A stretch of DNA of 64,000 nt from Bacteroides sp. (GTDB lineage Bacteria; Bacteroidota; Bacteroidia; Bacteroidales; Muribaculaceae): assembly GCA_014802325.1 (NCBI GenBank), contig JAAVCK010000002.1, forward strand, positions 62,001 to 126,000, in the 5' to 3' direction. Made by a program: the position numbers and the translations under genes. Position 1 is the stretch's first letter. Each line of letters starts with the position of its first letter. The notes beneath the pieces are model-generated. The model had not been told where the DNA came from, searched no databases, and saw only the letters and a list, made by a program, of their open reading frames with translations. This document shows, one piece after another, positions 22,563 through 51,201 of this stretch.

Positions 22563-22976
22563 TCACTTTAGCGAAGCTTCTATGCTGACGCCCTCGCCGG
22601 TCACCCACACATCTTTGAGCGCAAGCATCTCAAGCGCCTTCTGCGCCTGCTTCACCTCGCTCAGCTCCACGCGTATGCGGTGGCCATCTTCGGGTATCAC
22701 CATAGCCGACAGTTCAGAAAAGGCAGACTTAAAGACCATCAGAGCGCCGGATATGAGTGTATCCACCCCTAAGCCGCCATCATATTTGATGGTCACACCG
22801 TCGGGCCGCACATCCTCAATCGCGATATTGACCGAAACATTGAAAGTCTTGATTACGATCTTCTGCTGATAAGTCACACACAGTTCCTTATCACCCACTC
22901 GCGAGAGCACCACACTCTTACCATAATGCTCCTTAACATACTCGCCCACCTCAGCGAAAGAAAAATTCAGTTTCAT
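22563..22976 (-). CDS. Hypothetical protein, 137 residues
   Basis: A soluble protein without signal peptide or obvious motif; I do not recognise the family. It is predicted to be mixed alpha/beta, beginning MKLNFSFAEVGEYVKEHYGK and ending in a helix-strand-strand arrangement (KQAQKALEMLAL, VWVTGEGVSIEASL). It lies downstream of the dynamin cluster in the same orientation, but a hairpin at 22998-23042 lies between. Its base composition is closer to the general genome than to the AT-rich dynamin genes, so it may not belong with them. Confidence 0.6.
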   Translation of the reverse strand: MKLNFSFAEVGEYVKEHYGKSVVLSRVGDKELCVTYQQKIVIKTFNVSVNIAIEDVRPDGVTIKYDGGLGVDTLISGALMVFKSAFSELSAMVIPEDGHRIRVELSEVKQAQKALEMLALKDVWVTGEGVSIEASLK

Positions 22977-23071: not shown

Positions 23072-23725
23072 TCAAATCTTGATTGACTGATATTTCTCTA
23101 TTTGCTTCTGAGCCACCTCGTCAATAGCTGTCAGAAGTTTCATTTTAAATTCTTCCACGACAGTTTTCAGTTCATCCAATGAAGCCATAGTCATCACTTT
23201 TGATGAGAATTCAGATATTCTGATATCTATCACCTCATATACGAGAACTTTTGACATCATCGCGTCTTTATCTAAAGCTGACAAGTCTGAATCATTAATA
23301 AGAGTATGTACCTTTCTTTGATTCAACTCCATGGCTGAATCCCAAGAATTTGAAACATGCTTCACAATTTCAATTATCTTGTTAGTTACAGCATTTTTTA
23401 CCTCATTAATATCTACCGGTGTAGTAATATCTGCTGCACCGGCTTTAGATTTTGATGATAATTTATATGCTCCATATCCGGCTGCTCCTGCAAGACTGAG
23501 AAAAGCCAGCTTAGCACTTGATAATACCGCAGTAACCAAAGAAATACCAGAAACACAACCTAATATTTTAGACCAGTTTTGCTCTTGAGTCTTCTGTGAA
23601 TTATTATTATCAATTGAGGGTTGACGAGGTATTACTACCAAAGAAAAGTGATGGTTAACATAACTTTTCAGGTCTACACACTTCGCCCCAATCGACTGTA
23701 TTATTGTCTTTATATCTTCGTTCAT
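23072..23725 (-). CDS. Small membrane-hairpin protein of the dynamin operon
   Basis: 217 residues; family not recognised. The N-terminal 50 residues are polar. Residues about 54-88 form a Gly/Ala-rich hydrophobic stretch long enough for two tight membrane passes (ILGCVSGISLVTAVL, LAFLSLAGAAGYGAY). The rest is helical and charged, ending in IEKYQSIKI. The ATG shares one base with the stop of the upstream dynamin gene (TAATG), so translation is probably coupled and the two proteins made in fixed proportion. The position suggests a membrane partner or anchor for the GTPases. No homologue with known function comes to mind. Confidence 0.7.
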   Translation of the reverse strand: MNEDIKTIIQSIGAKCVDLKSYVNHHFSLVVIPRQPSIDNNNSQKTQEQNWSKILGCVSGISLVTAVLSSAKLAFLSLAGAAGYGAYKLSSKSKAGAADITTPVDINEVKNAVTNKIIEIVKHVSNSWDSAMELNQRKVHTLINDSDLSALDKDAMMSKVLVYEVIDIRISEFSSKVMTMASLDELKTVVEEFKMKLLTAIDEVAQKQIEKYQSIKI

Positions 23726-25953
23726 TATTTATAGAGGTTTTGAATTTGATTTAAAATATTAATCGCACTATCCAATTTTTCAAGAGCAACCGCCTTATCC
23801 TTTGCATCTTCTTCTAATTGTTTCAGATATTTGTCGCCCTCATCTTTCAGACGGCTTGCAAATGAAGTCTTAAGTGATTGCAGAATTTCGGTAGACGATT
23901 TCAGGTGTTTTTCCACTTCATTCTTTACATCACTTTTCAAGGCCTCTGCAAGGTTAGAGTATCCATTAACAAGCTGTTCTTTAAATTTTCTCAAAGATGA
24001 AGTTATATAGCTTCTTGCATCACTTTCACTACGATTACTTGTATCACTCGGCTCAAAGATTTGTGCTTGCTGATGACCTAAATCTACGTACCTCGTTCTA
24101 ATTGAACCAATCGACAGTTCACCGCTCTTACTAAGTTCAGTAAGTGCATTGTCTATAAGGTTGCGATAATACTCTTCGTTGAACAACGAACTCATCAACT
24201 TTTTCTGAAACGAGCTTATTGACTCGGTCAATTGATCTGCTAATTCAATCTGAATGTCACTGAATAGCTTTTTCCAGTTTTCATTCCAATCGTTCAGGTA
24301 CTTTTTAACCTCATTTTCGAAAGAAACGGCAAGTTCATAAGTATTTACTTGATCTATGGAAATTTCTTCTGTATTAGTCCAGAACATTCCTTTACAAGTA
24401 AAGTCCACTATTGCCGGCTCTGTGGGAATTGAGCGAATCTTACTAAATTCTATATTGTTTGACAGCTTTTTGATTTTATTCTGAAGTTCCGCAAGGAATT
24501 TATTGAAAACCAAAGCAAACTTTTCTTTCAAGTTCTCAAAGAGTATGCTCTGAAGTTTCTTCTGCTCCTCAATAGCGTCAACAGTAGCTTTTTTTACAGT
24601 ATCGTGGCGTAAATGCAAGTTTTTAAGCACTTCAGCTACATCTGATTCAATATCTGCCTGAGTACGCACAAAAAATTCATTTATGCGCTTTGAAATTATT
24701 TCATTCTTATGCTCCAGGAATTCGCCGAGAAGATACTTAGAGCGTATGCCTTTAAAATCTTCTACATCATCGATATTAGCAAGCCAATTGAAAGATTCTT
24801 TTATATGGTCGTAACTATCAAAATAATCCGCATAGAATTTCTTCATCTGGCTCACTACTGCACTTTCTATGTCATCCCACTCCGACTCGCTTTTCCTTGC
24901 TATAGAATAACCAATTCCAGCAGTGGTATCAATTTTGATTTTCCCTTGTAAATTTTCAACGATTGAAGACTGTAGCTCGTTTAATCTCCTGCGAAATTTC
25001 TTTGTCTGATCTTTGGCCGCGTCTTGTAAGTCTTCAGATGATTCCTCTTTCATTATTCTTTCAGCACCTCTATCCTGAAGCACCGAATCAAATTTACTTG
25101 CGAGGATTACTACAGCACCTATTCCGGAACCACCAATACGGGAGTTCAGAAAACCTATGTCACCCGAACCCATAAAGTCAGTGGAGGCACTGAGTAAGAA
25201 AACGCCATGACAAGACTGTAAGAATTGACGGGTACGATTCTCGCGCGAAACCACCGGGTCATTAACTCCCGGAGTGTCTACAATTCTTATACCTTTGAGT
25301 CTCTCATCATTCAGCTTGATATATAAGCTCTTAACAACCGATGTATACTCACCGCTTGCTCCTACATATTTTTCAAGTACATCCTGAAGTTCACTAATGG
25401 TTGAGAATGATTTTACATCCTTTTCACTTCCAATCTTTGATTTCGCTGCATTGCTGCACATTGAAACCATTTCATGGGCAGACCGCATCTTCTCGGAAGT
25501 TCGGCTCTCTATTTCTCGATTTATTACAGACTGAGGAGCTCCCGGTTCATTTTTCCTGACTTCACTTTCAATCTTGCTATATTCATCATTCTGACGAACG
25601 AATATCTCCCATTCCTCACGGCTGAAATACTCTATTTCAAATGTATTTGTTTCCGCATATTCTATAACTGTCAATCCTGCAGTCATAGGAGTAGACGCAC
25701 GTGGTAATATGTTCTTACCATCAAAAAACAACGAGTTAAGGAAAGAAGATTTTCCGGCCTTTACCTGACCTACTATACCGATCTGAAGTATTTCACCGGA
25801 TTTCAATAATTCCTCTCCGCTACTCTTGAATTCGCGAAAAGCACTTTCCAAGTCTACGATGTGGGTTCCGAGATCAAGCCCTTCGATTACTTTCAGTGAA
25901 GAAAGTAATTTATCAGTTTCGGAGATCTTATTTTCTAGTTCTTTTGAGTTCAT
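23725..25953 (-). CDS. Dynamin-like GTPase 3 of the operon (742 residues, coiled-coil rich)
   Basis: The GTPase domain has P-loop GQVKAGKSS (62-70), a switch I Thr in TPMTAG (89-94), switch II DTPG (226-229) and G4 ASKFD (285-289). The G1 form GxxxxGKSS followed by helical stalk regions is that of bacterial dynamin-like proteins. After residue about 420 the protein is almost all amphipathic helix and coiled coil, with no strong membrane segment, so any paddle would be amphipathic. The long insert between G2 and G3 (about 115-200) is helical. It starts 1 base after the stop of the upstream dynamin gene. Compare the LeoABC dynamin cluster of enterotoxigenic E. coli. Base composition is AT-rich. 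Confidence 0.85.
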   Translation of the reverse strand: MNSKELENKISETDKLLSSLKVIEGLDLGTHIVDLESAFREFKSSGEELLKSGEILQIGIVGQVKAGKSSFLNSLFFDGKNILPRASTPMTAGLTVIEYAETNTFEIEYFSREEWEIFVRQNDEYSKIESEVRKNEPGAPQSVINREIESRTSEKMRSAHEMVSMCSNAAKSKIGSEKDVKSFSTISELQDVLEKYVGASGEYTSVVKSLYIKLNDERLKGIRIVDTPGVNDPVVSRENRTRQFLQSCHGVFLLSASTDFMGSGDIGFLNSRIGGSGIGAVVILASKFDSVLQDRGAERIMKEESSEDLQDAAKDQTKKFRRRLNELQSSIVENLQGKIKIDTTAGIGYSIARKSESEWDDIESAVVSQMKKFYADYFDSYDHIKESFNWLANIDDVEDFKGIRSKYLLGEFLEHKNEIISKRINEFFVRTQADIESDVAEVLKNLHLRHDTVKKATVDAIEEQKKLQSILFENLKEKFALVFNKFLAELQNKIKKLSNNIEFSKIRSIPTEPAIVDFTCKGMFWTNTEEISIDQVNTYELAVSFENEVKKYLNDWNENWKKLFSDIQIELADQLTESISSFQKKLMSSLFNEEYYRNLIDNALTELSKSGELSIGSIRTRYVDLGHQQAQIFEPSDTSNRSESDARSYITSSLRKFKEQLVNGYSNLAEALKSDVKNEVEKHLKSSTEILQSLKTSFASRLKDEGDKYLKQLEEDAKDKAVALEKLDSAINILNQIQNLYK

Positions 25954-25954
25954 A

Positions 25955-28006
25955 TTACAATTTCTTTGATAACCAATTCATAAATGTATGTTTATTTGCC
26001 AAGTCTTCAACTGTCTCGCCCTTATCGGTGGTCATATCTATCAAGTCAGGATCGTTAGCTAACAGCATCTCGGCTAAATCGCGATACTCGTTTTCAACAG
26101 CTGTGTGAAATGCGTTATAACCGCGGGCATCCTTTATTGAGGGATCTGCTCCATGATCAAGGAGGAACTTGACCATATCATTGTATCCGTAATTCACAGC
26201 ATAGGTAAAAGGATTGAAACCCTTTGAATTAGAGACCGATATATCTACTCCATTCTCAAAACTACGTATGAATGCGTTAAAATCCGCTTTCTCAATAGAT
26301 TCGAATACGTCAGGAATTTCTGCGGTTTCAGATTTATAATTTACTCCACTTAATCTCTTTTTATATTCATGGATTGCAAGGTCGAGAGCAGCCATGAAAA
26401 GCTGCTTATACTCCTTGAACGACTGAATCATATTCTCTTCTAAATTCTTTCGTTCCATTAAATTATTGCAATCATTGACGTAGAAATCTTGATTTCGTTC
26501 ATATGAAGCAACAATTTCTTCGTTTATTCCTTTCCATAACTCTTTACGATACTCTTCTTTATAATAATTCATATTACAATTATCAAGTAACTTCATACTT
26601 TTATTATAAGAGTTAGCACCTCTTGTAAGGATGGGCGTTAGAGTATTTGTCCAACTGGCGTGATCCGTTTCATCCCATCTCTGAACTTCATCATAGAATT
26701 TGGAAAAAGCGTTCAAACAATCATAGCCGGCCTTATTAAGACTTTCCCATTCATTACAGATATGGCTATAACTACTAATTAAGATCTCTTTTAAATTATA
26801 AGAAAAAGTACCCTCCTTTGCAATCTTTTCAGCTCTTACATAACCACTCCACTCATCTCTTTCATCAGATGATTTTTTATATTGCTCCCTAATATCTTTA
26901 ATAGTATTCTCACTTGCTTGAATCTCATTGTCAAAAAGTTCAGAGACTCTATTCTTGAGGAAATTCAGTTCACTTAATCCGGTTCCTACCGAGCGGACAT
27001 GATCAATAATATTTTGTGATCTATTATTATATGAATAGTAAACCTTACCGTCAAGTGCTGAGTATGCAATTATGTCAAGAATTTCTTCTTTCGGGAATAC
27101 TTGGTAAAGCTGTGCGGCAGCAGTGTCTACTATTCGTTTTACTTCATTGAGTTTACCATGTGAAACTAATTTATCAGCCTTGTTAAAAAATATTAATTTG
27201 GGACCCTTAAAGGGTTTCATCATCTCAATGTCTTCCTTTACGATAGTTCCACGATCAATATTTACGAACCAAAACAGAACGTTACCCTCATCCATAGCCT
27301 CCTTAGCCGTTTCTCTATCGGTCTTACCGTTAGAGTCGTTGGCTACATCTTTATTATTGTATCCGGGGGTATCAATAAAGACAACTCCATTCAGTCTATC
27401 GGCATTTACCTCAACATAGAGCTTACTTAAGACTGATGCAAGGTGGATATTCGAGGCACTTGCGTGCTGTATGGCTTGCAGAAGCCAAGGCGTCAAATGA
27501 ACCACAACGTCTTTATGATTTACACCTTTTACTGTTACTCCATTGCAGGAATTTGAGCAGTACAAATAAGTCTTTACTACTGAAACCGGCTCGGTTCCAG
27601 TAGGCAATAGGTTTACACTGTTTGTTATTCGATTCAGAAACGAAGATTTTCCTGAAGAGAATCCACCTGCTACTACCACCTGAGTATGTTCGGTATTCTT
27701 GCTGTCTGATATAGTATAAAGAATATTACTGCACAACTGGATGAGCTGATGCTCGAAATCAAAGTTAGACAGGTTACGACGATTCTCCTCTAAATAATCT
27801 TCCAGGCATTTGTCCTTTACCTTCTTTGTATAAGCATCATTCAGTATTTGCCAATAGATCGAAGTATCTGTGGATGCTTTAGCCGAGCTAATCCTTGCCA
27901 TCAAATCCAACACATTTTGCGGATTTTCATAGGGATTAACTTTTATAACTTGCTTTTTCGGAGCTTTAGGTTTAGTTTCCTCTTTTTTCTTACTGAAAAG
28001 GCCCAT
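25955..28006 (-). CDS. Dynamin-like GTPase 2 of the operon, with C-terminal ankyrin repeats
   Basis: 683 residues. A basic Lys/Pro-rich N-terminus (MGLFSKKKEETKPKAPKK) is followed by a GTPase domain with P-loop GGFSSGKSS (114-122), DTPG (212-215) and NKAD (275-278), then a helical stalk. From about residue 570 to 675 come ankyrin repeats (GFNPFTYAVNYGYNDMVKFLLDHGADPSIKD, then GYNAFHTAVENEYRDLAEMLL). Ankyrin repeats normally bind other proteins. Their fusion to a bacterial dynamin is unusual and suggests recruitment of a partner or sensing of a ligand. No transmembrane segment is seen. It is flanked by two other dynamin genes, with an 18-bp imperfect hairpin just upstream. Confidence 0.85.
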   Translation of the reverse strand: MGLFSKKKEETKPKAPKKQVIKVNPYENPQNVLDLMARISSAKASTDTSIYWQILNDAYTKKVKDKCLEDYLEENRRNLSNFDFEHQLIQLCSNILYTISDSKNTEHTQVVVAGGFSSGKSSFLNRITNSVNLLPTGTEPVSVVKTYLYCSNSCNGVTVKGVNHKDVVVHLTPWLLQAIQHASASNIHLASVLSKLYVEVNADRLNGVVFIDTPGYNNKDVANDSNGKTDRETAKEAMDEGNVLFWFVNIDRGTIVKEDIEMMKPFKGPKLIFFNKADKLVSHGKLNEVKRIVDTAAAQLYQVFPKEEILDIIAYSALDGKVYYSYNNRSQNIIDHVRSVGTGLSELNFLKNRVSELFDNEIQASENTIKDIREQYKKSSDERDEWSGYVRAEKIAKEGTFSYNLKEILISSYSHICNEWESLNKAGYDCLNAFSKFYDEVQRWDETDHASWTNTLTPILTRGANSYNKSMKLLDNCNMNYYKEEYRKELWKGINEEIVASYERNQDFYVNDCNNLMERKNLEENMIQSFKEYKQLFMAALDLAIHEYKKRLSGVNYKSETAEIPDVFESIEKADFNAFIRSFENGVDISVSNSKGFNPFTYAVNYGYNDMVKFLLDHGADPSIKDARGYNAFHTAVENEYRDLAEMLLANDPDLIDMTTDKGETVEDLANKHTFMNWLSKKL

Positions 28007-28022
28007 ATTTGATAAAATATAA

Positions 28023-28075
28023 GTAAATTGACGGCATAAATTTTTCCTAAAGTCAGATTTATCCCGTCAATTTAC
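28023..28075 (-). repeat. Long inverted repeat between dynamin genes 1 and 2
   Basis: GTAAATTGACGG (28023-28034) pairs perfectly with 28064-28075. After one mismatch the stem continues with ATAAAT (28036-28041) and ATTTAT (28057-28062), leaving a 15-base loop. This makes an 18-bp stem in the 100-base gap between the two genes. There is no following T run in either direction, so it is more likely an mRNA processing or stability element, or a protein site, than a terminator. Confidence 0.5.
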
Positions 28076-28106
28076 ATCATGATGGTATTTTTAAATAATT
28101 AAATTG

Positions 28107-29738
28107 TCAGCCGGGAAATTGTGCCGAAATCACCTTCAGGCGATCAATATTCGCATTAAGGATTGTGATCTCTTTCTCAACCTCTTCTTTGGTTTTCTTA
28201 GAATCCTCAATCTTAGCGCGAAGTCCTTCTTTTACACTCTCCATTTTCGCAACAAGTTCTTCCACAAGTTTCTTCTGAATTCGCTTCTGATTTTCCACAG
28301 TTAACTTATAGAGAGTAGGACGGAGGCCTTCAATGACACCTTTCTCACACGCTGTCAATAATTTCTCGCGAGCTTCCTCGGCCATTTCCTCATTAGATTT
28401 TCCGAAGAATTTCTTTATTATATCAGGAAGTAAAGGAAGAATGACGGCGACTATTTGCCCCCATACTCCTCCAAATGACAAAAAGTTCTGTATGTAATCT
28501 TTAAATGTATCAATCAAGTCTGAGAAATCATCCATAAAATTAGTATCAATCTCTATTACAGAAAGATCTCCGATTGATTCCTGAATTACCGAACTGATAG
28601 CAGTAGAATACTGTTCGCTTTCCTCTTTCAACGACATAATAATTTCAGTGCGCACTGTACTTACGATCACTGATTTGATTGCATCTTTATCTTCGCGATT
28701 AACAATCATTTCAGCAATATCATAGGACTTTGCATGCAATGCCTGACGAACATTGTCAAGAATGTCCTGAGTTGATTTCTCCGGAGTATCAGCTCCGCTA
28801 TTCTCATGATTTACTTCTACTTTTACATTCTTGATCTCTTCCTCCACAGCCTTGATTTTTTCTTCAGCATTAACTACGTCAGAAGTTCTCAGTTTTACTT
28901 TAACTTTTATCTGATCTATGAAAGAGTTGATTATCAGCTGAAGAGATTTATTTAGCTTGGCTGCAAGAATCTTGTCTGCATCAAGAGAGGCAATATATTC
29001 ATTTAGGCCATCAAGATTGTGATTTACAGAGCATACCGTACCAACATAAGGTGCTACGTTACCCATCTTAGTGAGTTGATACTGGATATACTCCACTACA
29101 TTCCTTACCTCCTGCTCCGGTTTCTTATCAATCTTCGAGACCAAAACAGCGGGGTGCATATTGTACTTGGAAAGCTCCTGCATAAATGCTAAAGAGCTTG
29201 CGCGCAGCGATCCTTGCTCAACATCCACGATAAGCACGAATGCTGTTCCAGAATTAACATAATTAGCTATCGCTGCATCGTGTTTTTCGATACCTGAACC
29301 GATTCCTGGCATATCCACAAGGATTACACCACGCTCCTGAAGGCCCTTAATCGGCTGACTGTTGCAATAGACTTTAGCCACATCACCAGGCTTAGTCGCC
29401 AGACTCTTAATTTCGCTTAATGGCTTTGAATCTACCAAAGCGCCTTCTCGATACAATTCCACCTGCTCAGTAGTACTGTAATATAACTCGTAAGCCACGG
29501 CTGTTTCAGGCTCGGTGTCAACAGGAAGCATTCCGGGCTTTTCAGTAAACATATTAAGAAGTGAGCTCTTGCCTGCGCTGAAAACTCCAACTAAAGGAAC
29601 TTTAATGTATTCCGATTTAGCGAGTAGTTCATTAAAATCTTGCAGTTTATTATTCATGTCTTCCAAGAGTACTCCGTCAAGGATAGAAGACATTTCGGTA
29701 ATCTGATCTACAGCTTTTTGATAATTCAGTTTATTCAT
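28107..29738 (-). CDS. Dynamin-like GTPase 1 of the operon, with hydrophobic paddle segment
   Basis: 543 residues. P-loop GVFSAGKSS (51-59), switch I Thr in VDTEPETA, switch II DMPG (142-145) and G4 SKID (201-204) define a dynamin-family GTPase. A helical stalk follows, and residues about 419-440 (FLSFGGVWGQIVAVILPLLPDI) form a hydrophobic segment, as in the membrane-inserting paddle of bacterial dynamin-like proteins. The end (about 480-540) is a charged coiled coil. The frame is open to a TTG at 29771, but the ATG at 29738 is preferred because it avoids overlap with the upstream small gene. It is the first dynamin of three and the only one with a clear membrane segment. Confidence 0.85.
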   Translation of the reverse strand: MNKLNYQKAVDQITEMSSILDGVLLEDMNNKLQDFNELLAKSEYIKVPLVGVFSAGKSSLLNMFTEKPGMLPVDTEPETAVAYELYYSTTEQVELYREGALVDSKPLSEIKSLATKPGDVAKVYCNSQPIKGLQERGVILVDMPGIGSGIEKHDAAIANYVNSGTAFVLIVDVEQGSLRASSLAFMQELSKYNMHPAVLVSKIDKKPEQEVRNVVEYIQYQLTKMGNVAPYVGTVCSVNHNLDGLNEYIASLDADKILAAKLNKSLQLIINSFIDQIKVKVKLRTSDVVNAEEKIKAVEEEIKNVKVEVNHENSGADTPEKSTQDILDNVRQALHAKSYDIAEMIVNREDKDAIKSVIVSTVRTEIIMSLKEESEQYSTAISSVIQESIGDLSVIEIDTNFMDDFSDLIDTFKDYIQNFLSFGGVWGQIVAVILPLLPDIIKKFFGKSNEEMAEEAREKLLTACEKGVIEGLRPTLYKLTVENQKRIQKKLVEELVAKMESVKEGLRAKIEDSKKTKEEVEKEITILNANIDRLKVISAQFPG

Positions 29739-29763
29739 AATATTGTGATCTAAAATATATATT

Positions 29764-29985
29764 TTATCCAATTCTCTGTACGTCGAGGTAGACTGTGGAG
29801 AGGGCGCCGGCGCGCTTGATGTCGATGCCGTAGACGCGCATGAAAGCGTCTACCACGAGCTGGCCGCCGTTGGTTATCACGAGATTACTGAATGTGTTGG
29901 TCACTACATCCACGGTCATTCCCGGCTCTATGCGGATGCCATTGGAATACTTTGTAGTCTTTGTGGTGATGCGGAATAAAGGCAT
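29764..29985 (-). CDS. Small conserved protein, DUF6140-like
   Basis: 73 residues from the ATG at 29985 (MPLFRITTKTTKYSNG...). The sequence KYSNGIRIEPGMTVDVV...NGGQLVVDAFMRVYGIDIKRAG...YLDVQRIG resembles small Bacteroidetes proteins I recall as DUF6140; this could not be checked. The frame could start 12 codons earlier, but the chosen Met gives the family-like beginning. The GC content is higher than that of the dynamin genes beside it. It lies 25 bases ahead of dynamin gene 1 and probably shares its promoter. Function unknown. Confidence 0.65.
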   Translation of the reverse strand: MPLFRITTKTTKYSNGIRIEPGMTVDVVTNTFSNLVITNGGQLVVDAFMRVYGIDIKRAGALSTVYLDVQRIG

Positions 29986-30367
29986 ATGGAGTATTATAAA
30001 GGTTGCTCCCCGATGCCTCACTGAGCGGGGTTGGGATGGGGATATAATACGCCAAAGACGTGAGGCTTCTTTGCTCCACGTCCTTGTATATCAGGTATCG
30101 CCAAACACCTTTTCCGCTTGAAAGTGAAGAATACGTCACCCCACGTCCGGTGCGGATATAGATACGACGCACTGCGCGCGTCGACATAAGAAGCGCTACC
30201 GGAGATGGGCATCCTTCGCCGTCAGGTTCAGCGGAAATATCAATGATTTTGGCGATTTTTGATATACCGAACATCTGGCAAATTGCCTTTGGCGTGGCTT
30301 GCGGGATACTGCGCCGGACCGCTGTCCTGACGCTGCCTTGCGGGCAAAAGTGCCCCGTAACCATTGG
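29986..30367 (-). other. Long GC-rich leader upstream of the small gene and dynamin operon
   Basis: About 380 bases between the best minus-strand promoter and the first small gene hold no ORF I trust. A 178-codon frame (30421-29885) crosses the promoter and runs into the small gene in another frame. The stretch is GC-rich with several short inverted repeats, for example CCCCG/CGGGG around 30010-30030, so a structured leader RNA is possible. Confidence 0.35.
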
Positions 30368-30375
30368 CAAATATA
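30368..30375 (-). promoter_or_regulatory. -7 box of a minus-strand promoter for the dynamin operon
   Basis: On the minus strand this reads TATATTTG, a full match to TAnnTTTG. No good TTTG is present about 20 bases upstream. A start near 30361 would give a leader of about 375 bases. Confidence 0.45.
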
Positions 30376-30440
30376 TTAATAATTTTTGAAGTAAGCACCA
30401 TCGCCGGTAACTTTTCTTCACTTTTTTAGCTGATTTTTGT

Positions 30441-30448
30441 TATTTTTG
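30441..30448 (+). promoter_or_regulatory. -7 box of the promoter for the 558-residue unknown gene
   Basis: TATTTTTG matches TAnnTTTG and lies 119 bases before the ATG at 30567. It is divergent from the dynamin operon promoter about 65 bases away. Confidence 0.4.
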
Positions 30449-30566
30449 TACGGCGAATTTAAGCGTAGATTTCCGCCTGAAGAAATATTTTTCGGGCGTG
30501 GCTGCAGATATTTTTCAAAACTTCGCCCGAGCAGGGATTTTTTCTTCATTTGCCGTAAGTTTATCT

Positions 30567-47909: not shown

Positions 47910-48869
47910 TTATTCATTATTCCGCGAATGCTTCTGATACCAATAATTAGAACTAAAAGCAGCTGTAGACAGTGCCGAATATACTGCTGACTTTTCTTCA
48001 TCGGTGATATTAGTATCCTTCTCTATTATGGATATATAATTATTAATTAAGTCATTTACGTCGTCAAGATTGTCAACGTAATCTTTATATGCATCCAAAA
48101 ATAACTGTATCACCTTATCTTCTTTTGATGGATTTTCAACTTCATAGCTTAATGAGAATACCTCAGGATTAGTATATGCGGTCTTATATGAATTCATATA
48201 CTCCCTTGAATGTAGCGTTTGGAGTTCAGTGTAAGAAAGAGCATCTTCTAAATTATAATTATATAAATCCCCTTCATTTAGTATTAGACGCAACGTAATA
48301 TTATGATGGATTCCGGCTTCATAATCCTTACAATTTTTTTGCGGTATATTAATTTTTACTTTCGAGCATCTTTCTAATTCATTACTAACCAAGTCTTGTC
48401 TCAGCACGGAATTTACATATGCCAATTCAACTCGTTCCTGGTCAAAATTAATATTCACCTGCTCCATATTTGACGAACTATTCGTGATGGCAGCCATAGC
48501 AGAATACATAGCCGACATTACTGCTGCAAAAACCGCACTTCCTGCGAGGGATGACAAAAGCCCATGGCCTTTACCCCATTTAAAGCCTAATTTAGCGCCT
48601 TCTATTGCCCCCTTTATATCGGCATATATTACAGCTAATTGCTTAAGATTTTTGAAAAATCCTGATATACTCCTGCTCTCATCAATTGAGTCTTTGGATT
48701 GAAGCAAACTGTCATTGAGATTTTTTAAATTTGCGATCAAAGGATCACTATCTAAACTTACACTTGAATATTCCAGGTTGAGGGTATTTTGCAAATCTTC
48801 ATCATTTTGGCATGAATAAAAACTAATTGCAATGAGTAATAATGATAATACGAATAAAAATTTCTTCAT
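47910..48869 (-). CDS. Hypothetical lipoprotein with Gly/Ala-rich hydrophobic centre
   Basis: 319 residues with lipobox FYSC (Cys20). Residues about 60-85 are helical, and 87-128 form a Gly/Ala-rich stretch (GAIEGAKLGFKWGKG, then LAGSAVFAAVMSAMYSAMAA) that could insert in a membrane. The C-terminal half is acidic and helical, rich in Asn, Asp and Tyr. I do not recognise the family. AT-rich (about 30% GC in sampled lines) against about 52% for the genome, so probably acquired. It lies in the AT-rich module between the two repeat copies. Secreted lipoproteins with such a stretch can be antimicrobial or adhesive, but nothing here proves either. Confidence 0.65.
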   Translation of the reverse strand: MKKFLFVLSLLLIAISFYSCQNDEDLQNTLNLEYSSVSLDSDPLIANLKNLNDSLLQSKDSIDESRSISGFFKNLKQLAVIYADIKGAIEGAKLGFKWGKGHGLLSSLAGSAVFAAVMSAMYSAMAAITNSSSNMEQVNINFDQERVELAYVNSVLRQDLVSNELERCSKVKINIPQKNCKDYEAGIHHNITLRLILNEGDLYNYNLEDALSYTELQTLHSREYMNSYKTAYTNPEVFSLSYEVENPSKEDKVIQLFLDAYKDYVDNLDDVNDLINNYISIIEKDTNITDEEKSAVYSALSTAAFSSNYWYQKHSRNNE

Positions 48870-48943
48870 TTTCTTAATGGTTTATTTTACGTTGATTATT
48901 ATTTCTGAAATAGTAGCACGGACCAAATAACTTAATCTTTTTA

Positions 48944-49312
48944 TCAGAACTCAATAATGCCGACAAATGTATGACCATTATCTGCAACACATTCGATTTC
49001 GTACTCGCCTGAAAAATGAGGAGTTTCAAGCACAGGTTCATCGGTAGTGGCTACGCCGGACCATTCCTCAATTTCGTTACTGATATTTATAGAAATCAGA
49101 TTGATTCCTGTGGGAAATACAAAGCCAATATAGCCATCGCCATAGTAGCAACCTATTGTAAACTTTGACGGAACACCCGGACGCCCTGAAGTATTCTTCT
49201 TACTTATAAGTATGGTACTTTTTTCTCCAGAAGACGTCGAACTAATTCCAGCATCTACCGACACCGGAATTAGCCCAAATGTGATAAAAAACAAAAGTAA
49301 AATCTTCTTCAT
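48944..49312 (-). CDS. Small secreted DUF3244-like protein
   Basis: 122 residues with a signal peptide (cleavage near DAG, about residue 22). The remainder is a short beta-sandwich pattern: INLISINISNEIEEW, then FSGEYEIECV and HTFVGIIEF. The W-S-G and FxGxYxI patterns resemble DUF3244, small exported proteins common in gut Bacteroidales with unknown role. AT-rich like its neighbours. A -7 box (minus-strand TAATTTTG, 49352-49345) lies 33 bases upstream, so it probably starts a transcript that also covers the lipoprotein gene 75 bases downstream. Confidence 0.6.
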   Translation of the reverse strand: MKKILLLFFITFGLIPVSVDAGISSTSSGEKSTILISKKNTSGRPGVPSKFTIGCYYGDGYIGFVFPTGINLISINISNEIEEWSGVATTDEPVLETPHFSGEYEIECVADNGHTFVGIIEF

Positions 49313-49344
49313 AATAGAGTAAATTTAGGTTAAATATTACACCA

Positions 49345-49352
49345 CAAAATTA
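49345..49352 (-). promoter_or_regulatory. -7 box upstream of the DUF3244-like gene
   Basis: On the minus strand it reads TAATTTTG, fitting TAnnTTTG, 33 bases before the ATG at 49312. The surrounding 236-base gap (49313-49548) is AT-rich and holds no ORF. Confidence 0.4.
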
Positions 49353-49548
49353 CTCTATAAGCATCCTATATCCGAAAAACAGCCCTTAATTCACTTGTTT
49401 TTTACAAATTCTACTTTATTATTAATCAGATATTTACGCCGCAAGATTGGAAAATAATTTGTTCCATATTCCTAATGTCCTGATTTTCAATTATATATCA
49501 TTAGAGTTGCGATTTTAAGCTCTAACAAGCTATAAATCAAACACTTTA

Positions 49549-51201
49549 CTAAAGAAATTTCAAATATCGCTCTTTCTTAGTTTCGTCCAGGTCACTAATC
49601 TTATTTTTAAGGCGGCGACGGCGATTATAAATGGCTTCAATCTTATCTTCTTTAAGAAATAATGAGATTACTGAATTGGACAAACCAAGCACGGAAAATA
49701 AAAATAACCTATAATCGGCCTCTTTCAGGTTTGGCAAATCATTCTTGAAATCGTCAAAGAGACCGTCGTAATTTCTATTAACTTCATCTTCAAATTGAGC
49801 AATTTTTCCACTACCTATTGTAAGATCATTAATAATTCCGGTCACAGCATCAGCAATCTTTCGACGGGCGGCACGTGTGTCGGAAGTATATAATACTATA
49901 GTGCCTATATTATCGAGCAGTTCATATTTTTCCGACATTACTTTTCTGATTATATCCAGAGATGCGGAATTACTTTCCCTACTTTTGTTCAAATCTTCCT
50001 GTAGTTGTTCGGCCAACAATACTTTTTCCTCCACACTAATCTTTTGTCGTCTGACTATGTAGAGGGCAGAGATAATTATAATCGATATAACCACCACACA
50101 TATAATCAGCACGAAATACATTTTTAATTCTGCGATCTCAAGTTCTGCTTCCGAGTGTTTTGCCTTCAGATCATAATAAGCGGAAATAGAAGTAGTCAAT
50201 GTGTGACTCATACACTCTCTAAATTCAGAAACAAGAGAATTATATACATCTTCACTTCCCTCAACAACACCATTAACATCGCGACAAGCCTCTGCGATCT
50301 TATATTTTAAATATTTCTTATATATGATATCACCATCAGATAAATTTTCTACCATCATAACTACCGAATCGTTTAAACAACCCGATTCTATCATAACATG
50401 ACAATAAAGACACGTATCACCCGCTTCTGAAAAACGCCCATCCATAATGCACGATAGCATAATAGGACTTACGTCAGAAAATCTTTTTGTAAGAATCAAA
50501 TTATGAATAGTATTTTGCATCGAGCAGTAACGAAGATAATAATCCTGATATAGCTCAGCAGAATCCAATACCTGCTTCAGTAAATCATTAGATTCATCCC
50601 ATTTACACATATTACCTAAAGATTGTGCATAATCTAATAGTGAGTAATTTAAATATGGCTGTACACCACTCTTGGTCATATGCTCAAGTTCTTCTCCAGA
50701 AAATATAAGTTCCTCGGCTGCATTATAAGTAGAATTATAAATATCAGCGATACCCCTACACGACATCCCTGCCCAAAAATCCAAATGATTTTCTTTAGCT
50801 ATATCTCTTGCTCTAAAAAAATACACTATAGCTATTGGAAAATTTTTGGTATTATACTGCACTATACCTCTATAATAATGTGATATAGCCTGGCGCTCTG
50901 CGTCGTCGTGGCAGTCATAATAGTCAGTGGCAATAGCTATAAGGGAGTCATCGGTAGGTTTGAGATGCAGCTTTTCGAGCGCCTGAGTGACGAGCATAGC
51001 ATACAGCGCGCGATCGCTCTCGCGGTGAAGATCGGATAGCGATAAAGAGTCAAGTATGGCCAGTGACGAGTCTGGTCTGTCAATAATTATGCTCTCGGCT
51101 ATGAGCAGTCGTGAATCATAGCCTCGATGTCCACACGACCAAAAGGCACTCAGTGCCACAAGCATAATAAGAGGCAATATCAACGATCGCATAACCGGCA
51201 T
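49549..51201 (-). CDS. Membrane-anchored TPR protein with C-terminal HTH-like region, probable regulator
   Basis: 550 residues. A signal or lipoprotein-like N-terminus (about 1-23) is followed by TPR-type helical repeats (about 30-340), a single membrane helix (361-383) and a cytoplasmic coiled coil (about 390-425). The C-terminal region is helix-rich, with EADYRLFLFSVLGLSNSVISLFLKEDKIEAIYNRRRRLKNKI, as in the DNA-binding ends of Bacteroidetes TPR regulators. This layout suggests that a periplasmic signal read by the TPRs controls transcription inside. Its likely targets are the exported-protein genes downstream (48944, 47910, 47230). The base composition is AT-rich except for the 5' end. An alternative start is Met4. 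Confidence 0.75.
   Translation of the reverse strand: MPVMRSLILPLIMLVALSAFWSCGHRGYDSRLLIAESIIIDRPDSSLAILDSLSLSDLHRESDRALYAMLVTQALEKLHLKPTDDSLIAIATDYYDCHDDAERQAISHYYRGIVQYNTKNFPIAIVYFFRARDIAKENHLDFWAGMSCRGIADIYNSTYNAAEELIFSGEELEHMTKSGVQPYLNYSLLDYAQSLGNMCKWDESNDLLKQVLDSAELYQDYYLRYCSMQNTIHNLILTKRFSDVSPIMLSCIMDGRFSEAGDTCLYCHVMIESGCLNDSVVMMVENLSDGDIIYKKYLKYKIAEACRDVNGVVEGSEDVYNSLVSEFRECMSHTLTTSISAYYDLKAKHSEAELEIAELKMYFVLIICVVVISIIIISALYIVRRQKISVEEKVLLAEQLQEDLNKSRESNSASLDIIRKVMSEKYELLDNIGTIVLYTSDTRAARRKIADAVTGIINDLTIGSGKIAQFEDEVNRNYDGLFDDFKNDLPNLKEADYRLFLFSVLGLSNSVISLFLKEDKIEAIYNRRRRLKNKISDLDETKKERYLKFL

Follow-up and report, generated by a model that had tools for sequence, protein, structure and literature searches.

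We describe here a four-gene operon on the minus strand of a 64,000-nucleotide (nt) stretch of DNA from a Bacteroides sp. of the Muribaculaceae (contig JAAVCK010000002.1, positions 62,001 to 126,000; hereafter the window), in which three distinct and intact dynamin-like GTPases, called A, B and C, are followed by a hydrophobic protein, D. The trio recurs in distant bacteria, and together with D at two more closely related loci, and the distribution of the trio is rare, patchy and accessory. We interpret the set as a horizontally moved, three-component dynamin machine in which A and C would tether membranes with B as a soluble partner, and whose most likely task would be to guard the membrane against phages or other invaders; we hold this interpretation at about even confidence. 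Positions are those of the window, and the loci and genomes compared carry L and G numbers, respectively.

The operon and its proteins

The features considered were the following:

28107..29738, minus strand: protein A, a dynamin-like GTPase with a hydrophobic tip, similar to Campylobacter DLP2 (Dynamin_N; family profile to 5owv_C, E-value 4.6e-16; tree)
25955..28006, minus strand: protein B, 683 residues, a dynamin-like GTPase with no hydrophobic peak and with C-terminal ankyrin repeats (Pfam, tree, alignment, hydropathy, motifs)
23725..25953, minus strand: protein C, 742 residues, a dynamin-like GTPase with a long helical tail, similar to Campylobacter DLP1 and to BDLP1 (Pfam, tree, profile search)
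23072..23725, minus strand: protein D, 217 residues, with a hydrophobic segment from residue 61 and of no known family (Pfam, hydropathy; relatives after C in L005, L019 and L021)
29764..29985, minus strand: DUF6140 (PF19637), 73 residues, at the head of the operon (Pfam, E-value 6.8e-33)
30005..30112, minus strand: structured RNA leader, a UUUGGCGA-loop hairpin and then a proposed H-type pseudoknot (covariation; model R1)
28023..28075, minus strand: strong RNA hairpin between A and B with 12-bp arms (fold z-score of -4.9 for 28010-28106)

We considered as dynamin-like any protein with a Dynamin_N match above the curated Pfam cut-off (27 bits) and with G1, G3 and G4 motifs, and A, B and C all belong to this class, with scores of 55, 46 and 72 bits, respectively. 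The G1/G3/G4-like motifs are GVFSAGKS/DMPG/SKID in A, GGFSSGKS/DTPG/NKAD in B and GQVKAGKS/DTPG/SKFD in C. A first-pass annotation, made from the letters of the window, had reported three adjacent, non-identical GTPases with intact G1, switch II (G3) and G4 motifs plus a 217-residue protein, and its lengths (543, 683 and 742 residues, that of A being counted from the ATG at 29738) and coordinates were exact.

The same annotation had assigned a different tail to each GTPase. This stood for A, the only one of the three in which hydropathy rises above 1.6 (19-residue window starting at residue 419), and for B, the only one with ankyrin repeats at the C-terminus according to Pfam; the coiled coils proposed for C rest on matches to helix-rich (apolipoprotein) profiles. 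The peak of A is a family feature: each of the 13 A-type proteins examined has its highest hydropathy window at residues 409-446, with a weak value in L005 (1.39). The tails of B vary, with ankyrin repeats in the four closest copies and none in the aligned plasmid copies. In D the hydropathy peak begins at residue 61 (19-residue window).

The set is tightly packed, as the first-pass annotation had described: B and C are separated by 1 bp, C and D overlap by 1 base, and A and B lie 100 bp apart with the hairpin listed above in the gap. That hairpin is very stable and is possibly an internal attenuator or a processing site. DUF6140 ends 25 bp before A; the right edge of the first-pass annotation, 29985, is precisely its start codon, the gene itself having gone unnamed there.

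The low GC content that had suggested transfer was found again, with 37.8% over A-D vs 52.1% elsewhere in the window, and GC at third codon positions (GC3) is 0.31-0.38 in A-D vs a mean of 0.61 (standard deviation 0.09) in 36 other open reading frames (ORFs) of the window. DUF6140 is host-like in this respect (GC3 of 0.69), unlike A-D. A 137-residue gene downstream (22563-22976) was tried as a further operon member and rejected, because its GC3 is host-like (0.62) and it is present in the same-genus genomes G005, G017 and G023, all without a C match. No clean empty site was found, the two flanks of the insert sitting on different contigs in G005, and comparison of the insert edges on either strand gave no common word of at least 11 nt in the compared stretches.

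Recurrence and lineages of the trio

The closest named relative, L005 (JAFZBE010000063.1), belongs to a Bacteroidales metagenome-assembled genome labelled water buffalo omasum, in which DUF6140 and a gene with a formylglycine-generating-enzyme-like (FGE-like) product precede A (61% identity), B (48%), C (54%) and D (33%), the trio and D being in the order of the window. In G296 (L019) the order is DUF6140-A-B-C-D, followed by a Sel1-repeat protein with an acyl-carrier domain. The joint recurrence of the trio and the membrane protein elsewhere is supported by these two loci. In G344 (L020) the order could be followed only in part, being interrupted by contig ends. A sister type, A2-B2-C2, occupies 11 further loci (L022, L024, L025, L026, L027, L028, L039, L040, L048, L049 and L050); in nine of them the gap between A2 and B2 contains a called protein of 123-137 residues (the exceptions are L024 and L028, the latter with an antisense frame only), and B2 shows an N-terminal hydrophobic peak in 5/6 proteins examined. 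Outside Bacteroidales but within the same phylum, G1083 (L051) holds A and B, a TerB-domain protein, a 525-residue protein and then C.

Genes accompanying these trios were recorded as well. The FGE-sulfatase (SUMF1-like) domain gene between DUF6140 and A lies at L005:4815-6032, and the TerB-domain protein and the unassigned 525-residue protein occupy L051:9273-12373, inside the operon. Genes with an acyl-carrier (phosphopantetheine) domain adjoin trios at L019:7896-9698 (with Sel1 repeats) and at L022:3553-4764, and a lipid-related dynamin link is possible. On the E. coli plasmids an 829-residue protein annotated CFI-box-CTERM comes after the trio (L032:12225-14714).

A-, B- and C-type proteins co-occur on plasmids of Escherichia, Pseudomonas, Photobacterium and Calditerrivibrio. 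By tblastn, 15 plasmid records were matched by A, 15 by B and 20 by C, and C was also matched in 15/15 of the B records and in 14/15 of the A records, these 14 being B records too and the remaining one being from Anabaena; 10 of the shared records are Escherichia, hence these are not 15 independent cases. A Moraxella record has an A-like frame at its end. The gene order is A-C-B in Pseudomonas, Calditerrivibrio and E. coli, and A-B-x-C in Photobacterium, where the trio is flanked by conjugation genes; A came first wherever the order was seen whole in the plasmid and genome loci read.

In a tree built from 47 G domains (357 columns), A grouped with A2 (98/97) and C with C2 (100/100), so that A and C are old paralogues that have been inherited jointly with a B-type partner. 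Ten of the 11 B rows group (97/93), with B2 and the B of L023 apart in an unresolved fork and with several long branches; B and B2 form no single supported clade in this tree, so they may or may not be one lineage.

For the genome scans of the family we used E-value thresholds of 1e-10 for C-type and 1e-15 for B-type proteins. C-type proteins were found in 14/397 genomes of the family and B-type proteins in 13/397, all 13 among those 14, the genome with C alone being G320, where the match is short and at a contig edge. Within the genus, C-type proteins occur in two of 27 genomes, the window's own and G020, which carry different trio types. At the thresholds applied they occur in 4/393 genomes of the order and 2/395 of the phylum, own genome counted in both. 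DNA near the E. coli form of the trio was found in 5/5426 E. coli genomes, all on plasmids. This patchy, accessory spread is not that of a set fixed and vertically inherited in all relatives, which the first-pass annotation had named as a refuting condition. A phage origin of the trio was considered and rejected, C being absent from 50,697 phage records and, by pattern scan, from viral contigs.

The leader RNA and DUF6140

The leader RNA is about 105 nt long, and 19 nt separate its end from the DUF6140 start codon. It gave no Rfam match up to an E-value of 1 in 29700-30520, and the leaders of 19 further loci gave none at gathering level. Of the 19 DUF6140 leaders compared, 11 show a helix P2 of 5-8 bp and, crossing it, a helix P3 of 3-5 bp, always in the same order; in these 11 chosen loci every pair is Watson-Crick and the structure lies 13-35 nt before the start codon. 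The P2 and P3 helices were picked by eye, and P3 was not counted by the covariation tool. A script distinguished eight P2 and ten P3 helices, length variants being counted separately, and the shared core shows five P2 types by eye.

Covariation was evaluated on the hairpin plus P2 in a plain MAFFT alignment (A12) of seven of the 11 loci, and its score was reached by 0/500 shuffles and fell from 0.338 to at most 0.181 when the helices were slid. In the same alignment, the number of cells paired was reached by 1/500 shuffles and that of cells changed on both sides by 3/500, and the pairs changed on both sides and the further pair types by 100/500 and 237/500, respectively. When 22 model-fitted rows were used, 0/500 shuffles reached any of four measures and 12/500 reached the further pair types, the score falling from 0.371 to at most 0.148 on sliding. 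A free search for P2/P3 in the 11 leaders gave p values from 0.005 to 0.24, combined 6e-6 for sequences that are not independent; it recovered the full pseudoknot in 5/11, another solution in L025, L027, L065, L068 and L071, and a partial one in L026. The case for the leader RNA therefore rests on covariation and not on that search. Model R1 matched the leader of the window at an E-value of 7.5e-21, the window being a training sequence, and 9/57 sources at 1e-8 or below, of which seven had served as training rows; it missed L025, L026, L039 and L071, where the pseudoknot is visible by eye.

Some of these results would suit another explanation, in which the leader is merely a conserved promoter or 5′ region and its pairing a by-product of sequence conservation: long stretches are identical between the loci, the structure guided the fitting of alignment A13, the choice of helices was made by eye, with a P3 of only 3-5 bp lying outside the tool's count, two of the five measures were unremarkable on A12, and both model R1 (4/11 pseudoknot loci missed) and the free search left gaps. 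We judge this explanation very improbable, as the covariation score was not reached by any shuffle on either the sequence-only alignment or the 22 rows, it drops when the helices are slid, and P2 and P3 keep their order in 11/11 chosen loci. With its conserved, covarying structure in a 5′ leader, the element is a candidate cis-regulatory RNA. The SAM-II and preQ1 classes are small H-type pseudoknot cis-regulatory RNAs placed just before the start codon. The leader is like them in having a pseudoknot there, and it differs in the lack of an Rfam match, in the extra conserved UUUGGCGA hairpin and in its unrelated cargo.

The RNA is present in multiple copies in the genus and heads diverse low-GC cassettes. 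Nineteen of 27 genomes of the genus match it at an E-value of 0.01, many of them multiply, and the weaker matches may be due to chance; some of the 19 genomes, G005 for example, lack DUF6140. In 12/15 loci read (not in L061, L094 and L098) an ORF begins 11-35 nt behind the RNA. The genes behind it vary by locus, the first ones having a GC content of 0.32-0.46, below that of most flanking genes. We located the matching site in other genomes by the orthologue of a 581-residue gene of the window, which is 63% identical in G005 and 36% in G010. G005 belongs to another species of the genus; its leader RNA is identical to that of the window over the first 76 nt, and P3 differs yet can pair (CCTGCA/TGCAGG vs CCCCG/CGGGG in the window, by eye), and behind it there is unrelated sequence for 237 nt up to the contig end. 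In G010 there is a diverged copy of the RNA followed by three other small genes.

DUF6140 was found in 29/247 genomes of the family vs 0/14 controls (1e-6). It lies within 3 kb upstream of A in 9/15 Bacteroidota trio loci with A (window, L005, L019, L022, L025, L026, L027, L028 and L039), six times within 70 bp, and not within that distance in L024, L040, L048, L049, L050 and L051. In L070 (G118) it precedes a frame with an A2-like G1 motif that is cut by the contig end. Its GC3 exceeds that of the following genes in 18/19 loci compared (the exception is L064), a difference that may alternatively stem from codon bias, the gene being small and conserved. It also heads small-GTPase pairs (L055:6999-8468 and L066:2080-3505) and Zn-ribbon or AAA operons. 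A family scan of its cargo, covering 40/51 proteins plus two from the phage record L084, gave matches that include Dynamin_N and two families found in immune GTPases of eukaryotes, AIG1 and IIGP. In phage DUF6140 occurs once, at the extreme edge of the unannotated record MT836227 with other genes downstream; no match was obtained in plasmids, nor in viral contigs by pattern scan. Its predicted structure (predicted local distance difference test, pLDDT, of 83, from two sequences) gave no significant fold match, the best E-value being 0.69.

We put forward, more tentatively than the membrane-guarding role, that the leader RNA may mark a hotspot in which the RNA, with DUF6140 at several loci, is kept and different low-GC membrane or GTPase cassettes are swapped. 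On this reading an RNA-controlled, exchangeable envelope defence locus would have the three-dynamin set as one of its payloads, and the pseudoknot would be a regulatory switch and perhaps the point of exchange.

A second AT-rich stretch of the window (48001-51000, 33-36% GC) contains short ORFs resembling lipoproteins or exported proteins.

Known relatives, neighbouring genes and proposed role

In a profile search against solved structures the best match of the A family was Campylobacter DLP2 (5owv_C, E-value 4.6e-16) and that of C was DLP1 (5owv_A, E-value 6.2e-27), followed by BDLP1. A DLP1-like and a DLP2-like gene are thus found in one operon, as heterotypic dynamin genes are in Campylobacter jejuni (PDB 5owv), with B between them in the window. 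In Campylobacter the two proteins form a 2:2 tetramer, joined by the N-terminal helix of DLP2, that tethers membranes (PMC6162298, PMC6104087). The set in the window differs from that pair by the additional B lineage, protein D, DUF6140 and the leader RNA, and by its patchy accessory spread.

The first-pass annotation had offered LeoABC of enterotoxigenic E. coli as a known multi-dynamin cluster, but it is not a true trio: according to PMC4159319, LeoC and LeoB are the halves of one split dynamin upstream of LeoA, giving two dynamins in total. LeoABC is alike in having adjacent bacterial dynamin genes on an island, whereas here there are three complete unsplit GTPases, and neither A nor C had LeoA among its PDB profile matches. 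We rejected membership in LeoABC on the three unsplit frames and on the weak profile scores. IniA and IniC of mycobacteria are neighbouring dynamins tied to envelope stress. There the genes are two, and identity with them was rejected because the similarity is weak (IniA E-value of 4.4e-6 for A). DynA of Bacillus subtilis is one fused two-headed chain and is not known to come with the B lineage, ankyrin repeats or D. It would share with the trio a heteromeric dynamin logic and membrane guarding, and it is reported as anti-phage, delaying phage lysis (PMC8844932).

Recognised defence genes are clear neighbours of the trio in four loci. Pseudomonas plasmid NZ_CP133095 carries a WYL regulator, A, C and B, adjoining ZorC and ZorD of Zorya; G187 has type III Mod and Res together with PDC-S01 and PDC-S27; G476 has PDC-S27 on one side and AbiEii on the other, the ORF preceding AbiEii being an AbiEi match by sequence; and G744 has the FRG-domain PDC-S15 about 280 bp after C2, plus a WYL regulator. 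In addition, PDC-S27 lies near the trio of G579 and PDC-S01 near that of L005. We also scanned in bulk 113/134 neighbouring ORFs (within 8 kb and of at least 150 residues), the 21 dropped being in many cases overlapping or antisense-looking, plus two proteins inside the G1083 operon. At 1e-30 these 115 proteins matched 45 PADLOC families (25 of them known without their member proteins) vs 10 from 95 control proteins, a rough comparison only, as the controls were 95/103 ORFs lying mostly 10-40 kb away in the same genomes. The control matches were to the GlgB, IetA, mad3, mad6 and PD-T4-6 models and were judged generic.

The mechanism that we propose would proceed as follows. By analogy with Campylobacter DLP2/DLP1, A and C should form a membrane-bridging hetero-oligomer, to which A would contribute the hydrophobic tip and C the long arm of DLP1/BDLP1 type. 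B would be a third, soluble GTPase, using its own G domain and an ankyrin adaptor to gate or target the A/C assembly, D may anchor the set at the inner membrane, and the leader pseudoknot and DUF6140 may control the timing of translation of the operon. The assembled set would bind and stabilise damaged or invaded membrane, and would most likely serve, late in infection, to defend against phages or other incoming DNA, with an effect comparable to the delay of lysis by DynA of B. subtilis.

Several results weigh against this interpretation. In the window itself, 0/13 flanking proteins (13539-39398) matched any PADLOC model at 1e-10, so that the location beside defence genes, which the first-pass annotation proposed to look for, was seen for several relatives but not for this copy, and no known system was attributed to the trio neighbourhoods beyond the four loci. 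The names PDC-S01, PDC-S27 and Cas12f/TnpB near trios are weak evidence of defence, and PADLOC family counts are not protein counts, one ZorD yielding many families. B and C are present with no recognised A in L021 and L023, and five Ruegeria plasmids match C without A or B. The trio of G257 (L024) has a host-like GC content of 0.60-0.63, hence not every copy is a recent arrival. C gave no match in the phage records mentioned above. PADLOC Leo models gave weak matches over partial stretches of A (LeoBC 40 and LeoA 37 bits), B (LeoA 19) and C (LeoBC 47), and the structure predicted for B from two sequences was unusable (pLDDT of 42). The interpretation given in the first-pass annotation is partly supported, and anti-phage activity of the trio is something we infer.

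Among other roles, a system of envelope repair or stress, in which the trio would tether and reseal the inner membrane after damage by antibiotics, bile or peptides and would be mobile because useful in the gut, is in our view unlikely but worth serious attention. Membrane repair has been discussed as the task of Campylobacter DLP1/2 and of DynA (PMC6162298, PMC6104087), and some operons headed by the leader RNA and DUF6140 encode Zn-ribbon and other membrane proteins; the Zorya, type III restriction, AbiE, FRG and WYL neighbours of several relatives would be unexpected for plain repair. We consider it improbable that the trio is a vesicle or secretion factor of LeoABC type, its dynamins driving the release of membrane vesicles: leo deletions halve vesicle cargo (PMC4159319) and there are weak LeoA/LeoBC profile matches, but among solved structures Campylobacter DLP2 and DLP1 come nearest to A and C, and LeoA was not matched. 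Decidedly improbable is a role for the carrier element, in which the trio would aid its conjugation or entry exclusion. The trios on plasmids of Escherichia, Pseudomonas and Calditerrivibrio, and among conjugation genes in Photobacterium, would fit it, whereas no transfer genes were recognised by eye in the Bacteroidota loci, where no dedicated scan was made.

In the literature searched, which mostly did not extend to subscription papers, we recognised no paper on a three-dynamin operon, on DUF6140 or on the leader RNA. Bacterial dynamins have been described mainly as singles, fusions or pairs. A set of three lineages travelling between phyla would imply a separate task for the third dynamin, and it offers a tractable system for learning that task. 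The trio would add to the candidate defences that act on the membrane itself, and the leader RNA, with no Rfam match and placed ahead of variable low-GC cassettes, may be used for finding further envelope and defence systems as yet unknown.

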